Source: Leptotrichia shahii
GTDB taxonomy: Bacteria > Fusobacteriota > Fusobacteriia > Fusobacteriales > Leptotrichiaceae
Length of the DNA: 64,000 nt
Assembly (NCBI RefSeq): GCF_008327825.1
Contig: NZ_AP019827.1
Location: forward strand, 806,001-870,000
Direction of reading: 5' to 3'
Below the pieces are notes generated by a model that was given only the letters and a program-made list of their open reading frames with translations, searched no databases and was not told where the DNA came from. The first letter of the stretch is position 1; each line of letters begins with the position of its first letter. The translations under genes were made by a program, and so were the position numbers. Shown one piece after another: positions 2,552 through 13,525 of the stretch.

Positions 2552-2788
2552 ATGAACAAAATAACATTTTTAGATGTTGAGGAAGTAAGAATTAAATTAG
2601 AAGGTGTAAGAAGCTTAATGGTCGCTCTGGAATATGGAATATTTGATAGCTTTGAATCAAAAGAAATATTTAGAGTTGGGTATGCTAATTTGGTTGAACA
2701 GGTTTATGGTATACAAAATGAACTGGATATATTAATTGAAAAAGCAAAAAATAGAGTTCAAAAAGATTCGGAAGAAGAAATTGCATAA
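2552..2788 (+). CDS. 78-residue helical protein of unknown function (prophage)
   Basis: AGGAGG precedes the ATG by about seven bases. The product is acidic and mostly helical, with no transmembrane segment. I do not recognise it. It lies between the AbrB-like gene and the antirepressor and is probably transcribed with the latter. Confidence 0.6.
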   Translation: MNKITFLDVEEVRIKLEGVRSLMVALEYGIFDSFESKEIFRVGYANLVEQVYGIQNELDILIEKAKNRVQKDSEEEIA

Positions 2789-2813
2789 AAATAGTATAAT
2801 GGAGGATAAAAGA

Positions 2814-3530
2814 ATGAATGAATTACAAGTTATAAATGATGAAAGATTTCAAATATTCAGTAAAGAAAATTTAGGAAGTGTAAGAACAATATTGGTGGAT
2901 AACGAAGTATGGTTTTGCATAAAAGATGTTTGCGATATATTAGAATTAACAAATCCTACTGTTGTAGCCAAGAGATTAGATGAAGATGAAGTGACTAAGT
3001 TTAACTTAGGGAGTAAATTTGGTATTACCAACTTCACAAACGAAAGTGGATTATATACTCTGATATTACGAAGTGATAAAAAAGAAGCTAAACCATTTAG
3101 AAAATGGATAACATCAGAAGTTATTCCAGCAATCAGAAAAACAGGAAAATATGAAGAGAAGAAAAAACCTCTTACACAGGCTGAATTAATTTTACAGCAG
3201 GCTCAATGGATGGTTGAAGCTGAAAGCAGAATCAATAATATTGAGAACAATGTAATTGGACTTGCAAACACTATTGAGGATAATGACAAGAGCATAAAAA
3301 GATTGGAAAACAATCAAAGAAGAACAGTAACAAGCAACCATCTGACAGTAATAGCCTATGCCAACATAAAAGGAATAAAGCCAAAATCATACCACGCACC
3401 TTCTATAGGAAAGAAAGCTACTAAGATATGCAGGGAAAAGGATTTATTAATAGGAACAACGGTTGACAGCCGATACGGACTAATAAATACTTATCCTGTT
3501 GAAGTTCTGGATGAAATATTTTTTGAATAG
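2814..3530 (+). CDS. BRO-N domain phage antirepressor
   Basis: I chose the ATG at 2814 because GGAGG lies at 2801-2805; the frame is open upstream to 2736 but without a ribosome site. Residues about 10-110 form a BRO-N domain, with VWFCIKDVCDILELTNPTVV, ESGLYTLILRSDKKEAKPFR and WITSEVIPAIRKTGKY. The middle is a coiled coil. The last 60 residues (TSNHLTVIAYANIKGIKPKS) form a second small domain like those at the end of phage antirepressors. Such proteins usually act in lysis-lysogeny control. Finding one inside the tail operon, with a terminator after it, marks it as part of an inserted island. Confidence 0.85.
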   Translation: MNELQVINDERFQIFSKENLGSVRTILVDNEVWFCIKDVCDILELTNPTVVAKRLDEDEVTKFNLGSKFGITNFTNESGLYTLILRSDKKEAKPFRKWITSEVIPAIRKTGKYEEKKKPLTQAELILQQAQWMVEAESRINNIENNVIGLANTIEDNDKSIKRLENNQRRTVTSNHLTVIAYANIKGIKPKSYHAPSIGKKATKICREKDLLIGTTVDSRYGLINTYPVEVLDEIFFE

Positions 3531-8711: not shown

Positions 8712-9200
8712 ATGGAATTAGAAAAAGACAAACTATATATATGTTTTCACAAACCTAAACATCTTGTAGGACATTTAATAGCATTGTGGACATTTGGAAG
8801 ATATTCACACGCCGAATTTATTTACAATAATCAAGTATTTTTATCAAATCCTGGAGGAGTTAGGACAAGGAAATTTGAGTATCAGAAAAATATGGAAATT
8901 TATGAGCTTGACAAAAGTATCGACCCTAAAGATGTGATTGAATTTTTTAAAACGGCACAAGGTAAAGGATATGATTACTTGGGAATACTGGGGCAATTTT
9001 TCTATGCCGATAAGGTGCAGGACGATAACAGGTATTTCTGCAGCGAATTTTGCTTAAATGCGATAGATTATGCTTTGCAGTTTGCATTGACCTACAAAAC
9101 TAAATCATTAAAGGACAGGGTTGGCTATCAGTTCAATCCATCTAAATTGTTTAAGTATTTAAAAAATATGGAATTAATAAAAGAAAAGGAAGTGATTTAA
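8712..9200 (+). CDS. YiiX-like permuted papain-fold hydrolase
   Basis: The 162-residue product begins KDKLYICFHKPKHLVGHLIA, has a histidine in RYSHAEFIYNN and a cysteine in YFCSEFCLNAIDYAL. This His-before-Cys order is typical of permuted NlpC/P60 enzymes of the YiiX/YebB type, which cut or bind amide bonds in peptides or lipids. It directly abuts the endolysin gene, so a role in lysis or envelope passage is likely but not proven. There is no signal peptide. Confidence 0.7.
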   Translation: MELEKDKLYICFHKPKHLVGHLIALWTFGRYSHAEFIYNNQVFLSNPGGVRTRKFEYQKNMEIYELDKSIDPKDVIEFFKTAQGKGYDYLGILGQFFYADKVQDDNRYFCSEFCLNAIDYALQFALTYKTKSLKDRVGYQFNPSKLFKYLKNMELIKEKEVI

Positions 9201-11246: not shown

Positions 11247-11535
11247 AAAACTGGCATTTTTAATGTTAGCACTTATATTTTTAAATTCAGTTCTGACATT
11301 GAAGTTAAGAAGCTATCAAAGACGGCAAAATTTAGATTTATTAAGAAGCAGATTAAGAAACGAGAGCAATAGAGAGATTTTTGACAGCATAGAAAAGAAG
11401 TCGAAGACAGAGGATATGCTGCTATTAATCGGAACAAATATAGTGGCATTAATAATTATAGCTGGATTTGACAGGCAAAGAATAATTGATGAGAATAAAG
11501 ATAAAGAAAGAGCTGTCAAAGTGTTTGGGGGATAG
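11218..11535 (+). CDS. Small two-helix membrane protein of the lysis module (spanin or antiholin candidate)
   Basis: The frame is open from 11149, but the ATG at 11218 is the likely start because AAGGATAAGGG precedes it; a second ATG lies at 11224. The product has a basic N-terminus, a hydrophobic segment (LAFLMLALIFLNSVLTL), a charged helical middle with many Arg and Glu, and a second hydrophobic segment (MLLLIGTNIVALIIIAGF). It overlaps the holin-like gene by 29 bases. In a diderm host an inner-membrane spanin or an antiholin would fit. Neither is proven. Confidence 0.55.
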   Translation: MIMEKHRRSRKLAFLMLALIFLNSVLTLKLRSYQRRQNLDLLRSRLRNESNREIFDSIEKKSKTEDMLLLIGTNIVALIIIAGFDRQRIIDENKDKERAVKVFGG

Positions 11536-11557
11536 TCAGAAATGGCTATCTTTTTTT
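11531..11557 (+). terminator. Intrinsic terminator ending the late/lysis operon
   Basis: GATAG (11531-11535) and CTATC (11546-11550) pair around a 10-base loop, with seven T after them. It overlaps the stop of the last lysis gene. Confidence 0.75.
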
Positions 11558-11591
11558 GTGAACAAAAAAGTCACAATATTTTTTAAATATA

Positions 11592-11620
11592 TTGACAAAA
11601 AATAGCCGTTTTGCTATAAT
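11592..11620 (+). promoter_or_regulatory. Consensus promoter of the P63C gene
   Basis: TTGACA (11592-11597), 17 bases, TATAAT (11615-11620). The transcript would begin near 11627. That excludes the upstream ATG at 11624 as the start and supports the ATG at 11666. Confidence 0.85.
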
Positions 11621-11665
11621 GATATGAATGATAATCAAATAAATCTTATTTTGGAAAGGAATAGA

Positions 11666-12571
11666 ATGAAAAAAATACATTTTAAAGTTACTCATAGCGG
11701 TAAATTGATTATAGGAGACACTTCCATTAGTTGTGCAGTTTTAGAAAATGGACAGAGAATCATAACGCAAAGTAGTATATACAAAACTTTTGGAAAACAA
11801 AGAAGAGGTAGTCAAAGAGATGAAAATACCGTTATCCCGTATTTTATAACTTCTAAAAATTTGATTGCTTTTTTAGACAAAGATTTGCGAAAAGTGTTTG
11901 AAGAAGTTGAATACATATCAAAAAATGGAAGAGTGGTAAAAGGTTATAAAGCAGAAACTATACCAGCTATTTGTGATATTTTTATAGAAGCACATAGTAG
12001 AAAAGCATTAATGACAGTACAAGAACCATTATACGAGCAGTCATTAATTTTAATGAGAGCATTAGCTAAAGTTGGGATAACAGCATTGATTGATGAAGCT
12101 ACTGGATATCAAAATGATAGACAAGCACAAGAATTGCAAAATTTGCTGGCTAAATTTATTGGTGAAGATTTATTAAAATGGCAAAAAAGATTTCCAAAAC
12201 AGTATTATAAGGAAATGTTTAGGTTACACAATTGGGAATACGATGAGAATTCTAACAAAAGACCAGGATATGCGGGTTCTTTTACAATGAAATATGTTTA
12301 TGATTTATTTCCAGAAAGCGTCATAGAGTATATAAAAAGAGAAAACCCTAAATCTATTTCAAATAATAGATTATACCGTCATCATCAGTTTTTAAGTGTC
12401 GATATAGGAGTTCCTGAGTTAGATAGACATATTTCAAAATTACTGGGAGTAATGGCATTATCAGATAATATTTCTGATTTTGAAAAAAATTTTAAAAAGG
12501 CTTTTGCAATTGAATTAGAAAGGAAGAAAAAAGATACAGAATTTAAAAAAAAACAAAATGAGAGCCTTTAA
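11666..12571 (+). CDS. P63C-domain protein (phage cargo gene)
   Basis: ATG at 11666 follows GGAAAGGA with correct spacing. The 301-residue product matches the P63C pattern: SGKLIIGDTSISCAVLENGQ, RIITQSSIYKTFGKQRRGSQ, IPAICDIFIEAHSRKAL, IDEATGYQNDRQAQELQNLL and the C-terminal LYRHHQFLSVDIGVPELDRH. The biochemical role of the family is not known to me. It occurs widely in phages and bacteria. It has its own consensus promoter just after the late terminator and its own terminator, so it can be expressed from the lysogen. That arrangement is typical of lysogenic conversion or defence cargo. Confidence 0.85.
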   Translation: MKKIHFKVTHSGKLIIGDTSISCAVLENGQRIITQSSIYKTFGKQRRGSQRDENTVIPYFITSKNLIAFLDKDLRKVFEEVEYISKNGRVVKGYKAETIPAICDIFIEAHSRKALMTVQEPLYEQSLILMRALAKVGITALIDEATGYQNDRQAQELQNLLAKFIGEDLLKWQKRFPKQYYKEMFRLHNWEYDENSNKRPGYAGSFTMKYVYDLFPESVIEYIKRENPKSISNNRLYRHHQFLSVDIGVPELDRHISKLLGVMALSDNISDFEKNFKKAFAIELERKKKDTEFKKKQNESL

Positions 12572-12592
12572 TGGCTCTTATTCTTTTTCTAT
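12561..12592. terminator. Bidirectional terminator between the P63C gene and the small minus-strand gene
   Basis: AGAGCC (12561-12566) pairs with GGCTCT (12573-12578) around TTTAAT. T-rich sequence follows on the plus strand, and an A-rich stretch before it gives T on the minus strand. It overlaps the 3' ends of both convergent genes. Confidence 0.7.
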
Positions 12593-12730
12593 ATTCTTAA
12601 TAGCTGTTTCAATCTTAACTTTCAAAATTTTCAAATCCTGAAGTTTCATTTCTTCCAGCTCTATAATTTTTATTTGTTTTAGATTCTCAATATCTTTTTC
12701 ATCTAAGTTTTTGATTTTTAAATTTTTCAT
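12578..12730 (-). CDS. 50-residue helical protein convergent with the P63C gene
   Basis: ATG is at 12730-12728, with GGAG five bases upstream on the minus strand; the stop is at 12580-12578. The product is a Leu/Ile/Lys/Glu-rich helix (MKNLKIKNLDEKDIENLKQI at the start) with heptad-like spacing. I do not recognise it. A good ribosome site and a shared terminator support a real gene. Its position at the end of the prophage suggests a phage gene, perhaps a partner or regulator of the P63C gene; this is speculation. Confidence 0.5.
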   Translation of the reverse strand: MKNLKIKNLDEKDIENLKQIKIIELEEMKLQDLKILKVKIETAIKNIEKE

Positions 12731-13033
12731 TTTAACTCCATTGTATTTTCAAATTATTTGTGATAAACTATTATAGTTAGAAGAGCAAGGCTGTAATTGT
12801 TAGCCCTTAAATAGCCCTTATTTTTCAGAAAAAATTACATAAATCAATGATTTCAGAGAAAGATTTTTTAGCAAGAAAATAATATTATTTTTCCAAGAAA
12901 AATCAAGGGTTGCGAACATTTTTGAAATGTATTCAAATACAGTATAAAGTATTGATATACAATTCAAAGATAACTGTATTAAAATAAAGTGTACCAAGTG
13001 TACTATATTTATATTATAAAAAAGGAGAAATTT
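12731..13033. other. Intergenic region at the probable prophage-chromosome border
   Basis: There is no gene here. The sequence holds GTATTCAAATAC-type short palindromes near 12930. A direct repeat GTGTACCAAGTGTAC lies near 12990, just before the ribosome site of the next gene, and could be an operator. A phage attachment site would be expected between here and pyrC, but its partner copy is outside the window, so it cannot be identified. Confidence 0.35.
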
Positions 13034-13410: not shown

Positions 13411-13525
13411 ATAATAGATATGTTCAATAACCTAAGTTTTTTTATCACAAGGGGTTAAGCCCCTTGCTTCAAGATATTTATTTTATTAAATTTTAAGTTT
13501 ATATAGTTATCGAACAGGCCTAATA
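13411..13525. repeat. Dispersed palindromic element, copy A
   Basis: Imperfect terminal inverted repeats bound it: TGTTCAATAAC at 13421-13431 and GTTATCGAACA at 13506-13516, with weaker matching about 8 bases further out. The centre is a perfect hairpin, CAAGGGG (13448-13454) and CCCCTTG (13460-13466). It begins within 20 bases of the stop of the preceding gene and may also serve as its terminator. Closely similar copies lie at 43455-43575 and 54866-54978. Confidence 0.75.

Follow-up and report, generated by a model that had tools for sequence, protein, structure and literature searches.

The P63C gene at the prophage end

The window (the whole 64-kb stretch of DNA analysed) starts inside a prophage of 45.7 kb, carried by a fusobacterial genome of 2.16 Mb. 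The late genes of this prophage run rightward and end at position 11535. Behind their terminator lie an intact P63C gene and a small convergent gene, after which the prophage ends (Table 1). Prophage-free relatives align as far as G000:C1:773289 at the left border and resume at window positions 12957-12961 at the right one, and the 13-mer AATTCAAAGATAA was identified as the att core from the overlap of these two empty-site alignments. The insertion lies between pyrF and a small secreted-protein gene adjoining pyrC. The integrase gene is located at the left end (C1:773386-774516, minus strand) and the P63C gene stops 390 bp before attR, inside the prophage. With both att sites mapped, the location of this gene at a prophage end, proposed earlier by a sequence-only reading of the locus, was confirmed. 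The TTAGCCCTTAAATAGCCCTT repeats present near both prophage ends are probable arm-type sites of the integrase.

Table 1. Features of the right-hand prophage end, in window positions unless a genome coordinate is given
Feature	Position	Strand	Basis
Late-operon intrinsic terminator, left edge of the putative slot	11531..11557	+	stem GATAGTC/GGCTATC + T7
P63C promoter TTGACA-17-TG.TATAAT	11592..11620	+	12/12 consensus, extended -10
Ribosome-binding site GGAAAGG of P63C	11653..11659	+	sequence
P63C gene	11666..12571	+	301 aa, intact; PF10546, phrog_2384
N-terminal alpha/beta domain, Bro-N-like predicted fold	11666..12010	+	AF2 models, Foldseek BFVD
P63C domain inside all-helical C-terminal half	12143..12421	+	Pfam, AF2 model
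Two-way terminator common to P63C and the small gene	12557..12582	.	hairpin, reads on both strands
50-aa helical gene, fixed right edge of the putative slot	12578..12730	-	9/13 genus genomes, purifying selection
20-bp repeat TTAGCCCTTAAATAGCCCTT	12800..12819	.	exact copy near attL, G000:C1:773349
attR core AATTCAAAGATAA, prophage right end	12961..12973	.	identical 13-mer at attL; empty-site alignments
attL core AATTCAAAGATAA	G000:C1:773277-773289	.	13-bp match to attR; empty sites in relatives

The P63C promoter was compared with 500 shuffles of the 140-bp intergenic stretch, none of which contained one as good; in the 64-kb window, four perfect promoters were counted for 0.1 expected. Its -35 box and most of its spacer are common to a sister prophage carrying different cargo (L037), but the -10 box is not. 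An ATG at 11624 was rejected as the start codon, being only 4 bp beyond the -10 box, and translation likely starts at 11666, behind GGAAAGG. On the left, the late terminator is formed by a stem of 7 bp (11531-11550) followed by T7. On the right, the two-way hairpin (AAGAGCC-N6-GGCTCTT) is kept at most loci of the small gene. The perfect promoter behind the late terminator, the separate ribosome site and the bidirectional terminator between the convergent genes, all three first noticed from the letters of the window, were thus recovered.

A profile search assigned residues 160-252 of the protein to the Pfam P63C domain (PF10546, E=1e-29) with a score of 103 bits for a cut-off of 26.1, and phrog_2384 covers the protein from end to end (E=5e-98). 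Residues 143-147 form an invariant motif, DEATG. This domain, which bears the same name as the P63 protein of Myxococcus phage Mx8, was reportedly named by Iyer et al. in 2002; the literature on it holds passing mentions only. The high-confidence AlphaFold2 model built with 96 homologues (pLDDT 89.8, pTM 0.65; pLDDT 88.3 for the other AF2 model) consists of an alpha/beta N-terminal domain, which extends to about residue 112, and of helices only beyond it. No relative of solved structure was found, either by sequence or by fold in the PDB. When the full model was searched with Foldseek against BFVD, the first matches were Mx8 P63 and unnamed proteins, and 20 of the top 50, each of them weak, are named Bro, Bro-N, repressor, antirepressor or KilA. 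The N-terminal domain alone matched a BRO family protein (E 0.009, prob 0.97). None of the 96 P63C members matched the Bro-N profile PF02498, and we call the predicted domain Bro-N-like, not Bro-N.

Interchangeable cargo between fixed flanks

The late terminator is kept in five other loci. In L027 and L028, whose final late genes and terminator are the same, an Xre gene and a DinD-like Bro-N gene come next, and behind these the same small gene. Behind the same terminator, L033 carries a gene of 69 aa, and L036 and L037 carry a DUF4291 gene, the small gene being absent from these last two. In addition, L034 and L042 combine ATPase-like (AAA-ATPase) fragments with a small gene shortened to 46 aa; in L042, the slot adjoins the integrase, as demanded by the circular phage map. 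The occupants in L027, L028, L034 and L042 possess near-consensus extended -10 promoters that were unmatched in 500 shuffles, and those in L036 and L037 have weaker ones. Since sister prophages hold other cargo at this place, in most cases with a strong promoter of its own, the stretch from the late terminator to the small gene appears to be a swap slot with fixed flanks, of which P63C is one occupant. Taken alone, this statement about the cargo slot is very probably right.

Some of the other occupants can be recognised. In PADLOC, the DinD-like occupant matches the defence candidate PDC-S13 (1e-103). Two prophage-less remnants beside ligA (L029:8590-10059 and L030:8702-10177) consist of an Xre gene, an ImmA-like protease gene, a gene of 82 aa and the small gene, and the ImmA-like protein of such a remnant matches capP/RmrA. 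The DinD/Bro-N protein shares with P63C the slot itself in sister prophages, an own promoter and, going by the predicted fold of P63C, a Bro-N-type N-terminal domain. It differs from P63C by its C-terminal domain and is apparently co-transcribed with the Xre gene; no sequence homology between the two was detected by a test of low power.

P63C has the features of a moron: it has its own promoter and terminator and is insulated from the late operon, and the gene content varies between conserved flanks. The sequence-only reading had described independently expressed cargo at the end of a prophage. This description is upheld by the promoter and the terminator, by the mapped att sites, by the varied cargo of the sister prophages and by the homologues in lysogeny modules (see below), expression itself being predicted. 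The rexAB, bstA and tin/old-type loci are prophage slots for defence or exclusion cargo. The P63C slot resembles them in its fixed flanks and in its interchangeable, autonomously expressed cargo, but it is fusobacterial, lies between a late terminator and attR and is bounded by a conserved gene of 50 aa. It would offer a defined place in which to seek further defence genes in fusobacterial prophages.

The 50-codon open reading frame is a genuine gene and a fixed part of prophage ends in the genus, because its protein recurs in 9 of the 13 genomes of the genus and its pN/pS ratio, obtained by codon comparison, is about 0.08-0.22, which denotes purifying selection. The small gene reported earlier on the opposite strand is therefore real. 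Its protein was found in none of the 20 genomes examined from other genera of the family.

P63C on other mobile elements and its predicted function

Using tblastn, homologues of P63C were found in 47 phage and 16 plasmid records. Single-sequence searches of the genome_contigs and viral_contigs collections gave no matches, whereas an alignment query brought up, among the matches listed, more than 540 relatives in one of these collections and more than 570 in the other. Hundreds of genomes and viral contigs carry the family, which is spread over phages, satellites, plasmids and insertion sequences of very many phyla.

The positions near repressors are individually documented cases. P63C is the next gene behind the repressor, with the same orientation, in ST104, SI8, Midgardsormr38, an E. 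coli P22-like prophage and Gordonia phage Kuwabara, and it lies within the repressor-integrase region in DC1, Barco and the satellite Javan441. An example of the P63C gene of an E. coli P22-like prophage is L050:3950-4822. In SEN34, it is a lone antisense gene within the early operon. The only lytic-operon case is the Stx phage ST2-8624, where P63C is part of the nin operon. On small plasmids, P63C adjoins a restriction endonuclease gene or is near an Abi gene. In long viral contigs, which are possibly truncated, it lies within 3 kb of an end in 13 of 42 cases (6.7 expected, KS p 0.004).

The closest homologue, found in another fusobacterial family (G039, L043:7575-9308), encodes a protein 78% identical to that of the window and stands alone in 1.6 kb, with a tRNA-Thr gene on one side and, on the other, 34 bp that repeat the 3' end of this tRNA. 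This arrangement has the signature of an integrated element reduced to one gene. DNA similarity with the window copy ends at the borders of the open reading frame, and the dN/dS between both copies is 0.088.

Among 133 non-redundant P63C loci, the gene most often found right beside P63C is that of an ISXO2/IS1595 transposase. By Pfam, it was found in 21 of 111 upstream neighbours and in 3 of 96 downstream ones; with a dedicated HMM, seeded with clear transposases only, an IS1595-type transposase adjoins P63C in 28 of the 133 loci. In 24 loci, the transposase gene precedes P63C on the same strand, mostly overlapping or abutting it, and in 4 the two genes converge. In L114:545-2713, a perfect inverted repeat of 23 bp and an 8-bp duplication (TTTTATTT) surround both genes, and in L070:4915-6923, both are enclosed by the 8-bp duplication TCGTCATT. 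Inverted repeats of at least 24 bp surround the pair in L108, L141, L101 and L059. As most scores for small terminal inverted repeats (TIRs) are noise, these six loci are the ones retained as TIR evidence. Seven host genomes carrying the insertion sequence hold only one full-length P63C copy each, so that its mobility rests on the TIRs and target duplications. P63C is a recurrent passenger of IS1595-type insertion sequences. This is apparently unreported: in the part of the literature covered, no paper joins ISXO2 and P63C. The window copy differs from these passengers, as it lies outside any such element: positions 11500-12800 contain no transposase open reading frame.

P63C of the window can be pictured as an autonomously expressed moron occupying a swap slot, about 0.4 kb from attR at the integrase-distal prophage end. 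Owing to the strong promoter of the gene and its insulation on both sides, the lysogen would produce the protein while the lytic operons stay silent. Its Bro-N-like N-terminal domain would recognise the DNA, or a nucleoprotein structure or replication complexes, of an incoming element, and the helical half would block the replication or expression of this element, or abort the infection, in the manner of BstA or Rex. We infer expression in the lysogen, DNA binding and interference, the last of these by analogy with BstA, the abortive-infection protein of BTP1, in type of locus, size and KilA-N-like N-terminus.

Both BstA and P63C are prophage-borne single genes for proteins of about 300 aa with a KilA-N/Bro-N-type N-terminal region, in P63C a predicted one, and homologues of P63C share the bstA locus downstream of cI in P22-like phages (PMC8585504). 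In ST104, P63C is located between cI and gene 24; in BTP1, bstA is located between cI and n. The cI-n interval is a diversity hotspot containing rexAB and bstA, and a defence hotspot (PMC8585504). The window copy, unlike bstA, is at the other end of its prophage and not beside the repressor. BLASTP detected nothing between BstA and P63C; neither did hhalign, which carries no weight here as its positive control (Bro-N versus DinD) failed too.

Context supports the maintenance of P63C by many mobile elements and its lysogeny-stage positions. Interference with competing mobile DNA, expressed during lysogeny, is the predicted function that we favour, on the strength of the varied slot cargo with its PADLOC matches, the homologues beside repressors, the copies on plasmids, insertion sequences and the island, and the clustering at contig ends; we place it just short of an even chance. 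Phage defence is plausible in this framework. Against interference, we counted that no PADLOC model matched P63C itself, that no similarity to the BstA sequence was detected, that the ST2-8624 homologue is in a lytic operon and that the resemblance to Bro-N is also one to phage antirepressors.

A wider proposal can be put forward more tentatively: P63C may form a large family of single-protein interference between elements, similar to BstA and combining Bro-N-like DNA recognition with a P63C effector half, kept by temperate phages, satellites and small plasmids and also spread on IS1595-type elements, the fusobacterial prophage end being a defence slot of which P63C is one allele. Should P63C prove to exclude other mobile DNA, a widespread defence family would be added, and minimal insertion sequences would be shown to carry such a family directly. 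The sites occupied by P63C, namely the bstA locus, the prophage-end slot, small plasmids and IS1595 elements, make the exclusion of mobile DNA worth testing.

Four other explanations were weighed. First, P63C could be a regulator of the antirepressor kind, which would use its Bro-N-like domain to bind DNA or a repressor and would tune the lysis-lysogeny decision of its own prophage or activate co-resident prophages. Its predicted fold, its place next to cI in several phages and its position just before the annotated anti-repressor of ST2-8624 speak for such a role. However, a bona fide Bro-N gene (G000:C1:808880) is already present in this prophage, the window copy has its own promoter and is remote from the repressor region, at the other prophage end, and IS1595 elements and small plasmids, which also carry P63C, have no lysis switch. 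An antirepressor is thus unlikely.

Secondly, the gene could provide a non-defence benefit to the lysogen (stress, metabolism) or be a selfish passenger with no effect on the host. In its favour, the case for defence is indirect, and the copy of the L043 island stands alone. However, the spread of P63C over phages, satellites, plasmids and insertion sequences of so many phyla, together with the low dN/dS, fits a conserved activity tied to mobile DNA and not a niche trait, and we regard this explanation, too, as having only a small chance of being correct.

Thirdly, P63C could be a helper or regulator of mobile elements, for example of IS1595 transposition or target choice, later acquired by phages. 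In its favour, the adjacent transposase genes often have a stop codon overlapped by P63C, and the TIRs, in two cases with 8-bp duplications, enclose both genes. However, about 80% of the loci have no transposase neighbour, the window copy among them, and the occurrence of both head-to-tail and tail-to-tail arrangements argues for independent capture as a passenger. A helper function is therefore improbable.

Finally, a functional pair formed by P63C and the 50-codon gene (toxin-antitoxin or effector-modulator) is suggested by their convergent orientation and common terminator, but it is highly improbable, as the small gene occurs without P63C in 8 other genomes, where it coexists with unrelated cargo, P63C is present in only 1 of the 13 genomes of the genus, its closest homologue (L043) lacks a neighbour of this kind and the genes downstream of P63C are evenly oriented (64 on the same strand, 65 on the opposite one). 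A DNA search of the 13 genomes gave the same picture, the small gene and its surroundings recurring at about 70-95% and P63C not recurring. The sequence-only reading had proposed to look for the pair in other genomes, and had held that a small gene not conserved near P63C homologues would speak against it. Everywhere else, each gene travels without the other, and the toxin-antitoxin pair was rejected for lack of co-occurrence in this survey; the notion of a pair falls, and the cargo reading stands. An anti-CRISPR role of the small gene was considered; Leptotrichia-type hosts carry Cas13a.

Other features of the prophage and its surroundings

The control region of the prophage (G000:C1:780776-781632, L025:14776-15632) contains an Xre repressor-like gene with an ImmA/IrrE-type protease gene behind it, a gene order that suggests induction of the ImmR/ImmA type. 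The Bro-N protein of this prophage, of antirepressor type, is encoded among the tail genes (window 2736-3530). The late gene at 8712-9200, upstream of an endolysin-like gene, matches phrog_1128 (E 4e-38), which is listed as moron/auxiliary.

Between the small gene and attP, a 30-bp element, TTGNNT-N17-TGATAAAAT, is conserved at window positions 12741-12770 and at the matching place in L027-L034 and L042. It resembles an outward extended -10 promoter, and a strong hairpin with a T-run comes after it in L028, L032 and L034. The element may be a short RNA or a regulatory site, its direction being putative. An Rfam search gave no meaningful match. Beyond the prophage, a dispersed repeat of about 115 bp (window 13412-13525) is present in more than 20 copies in this genome and in related genomes.
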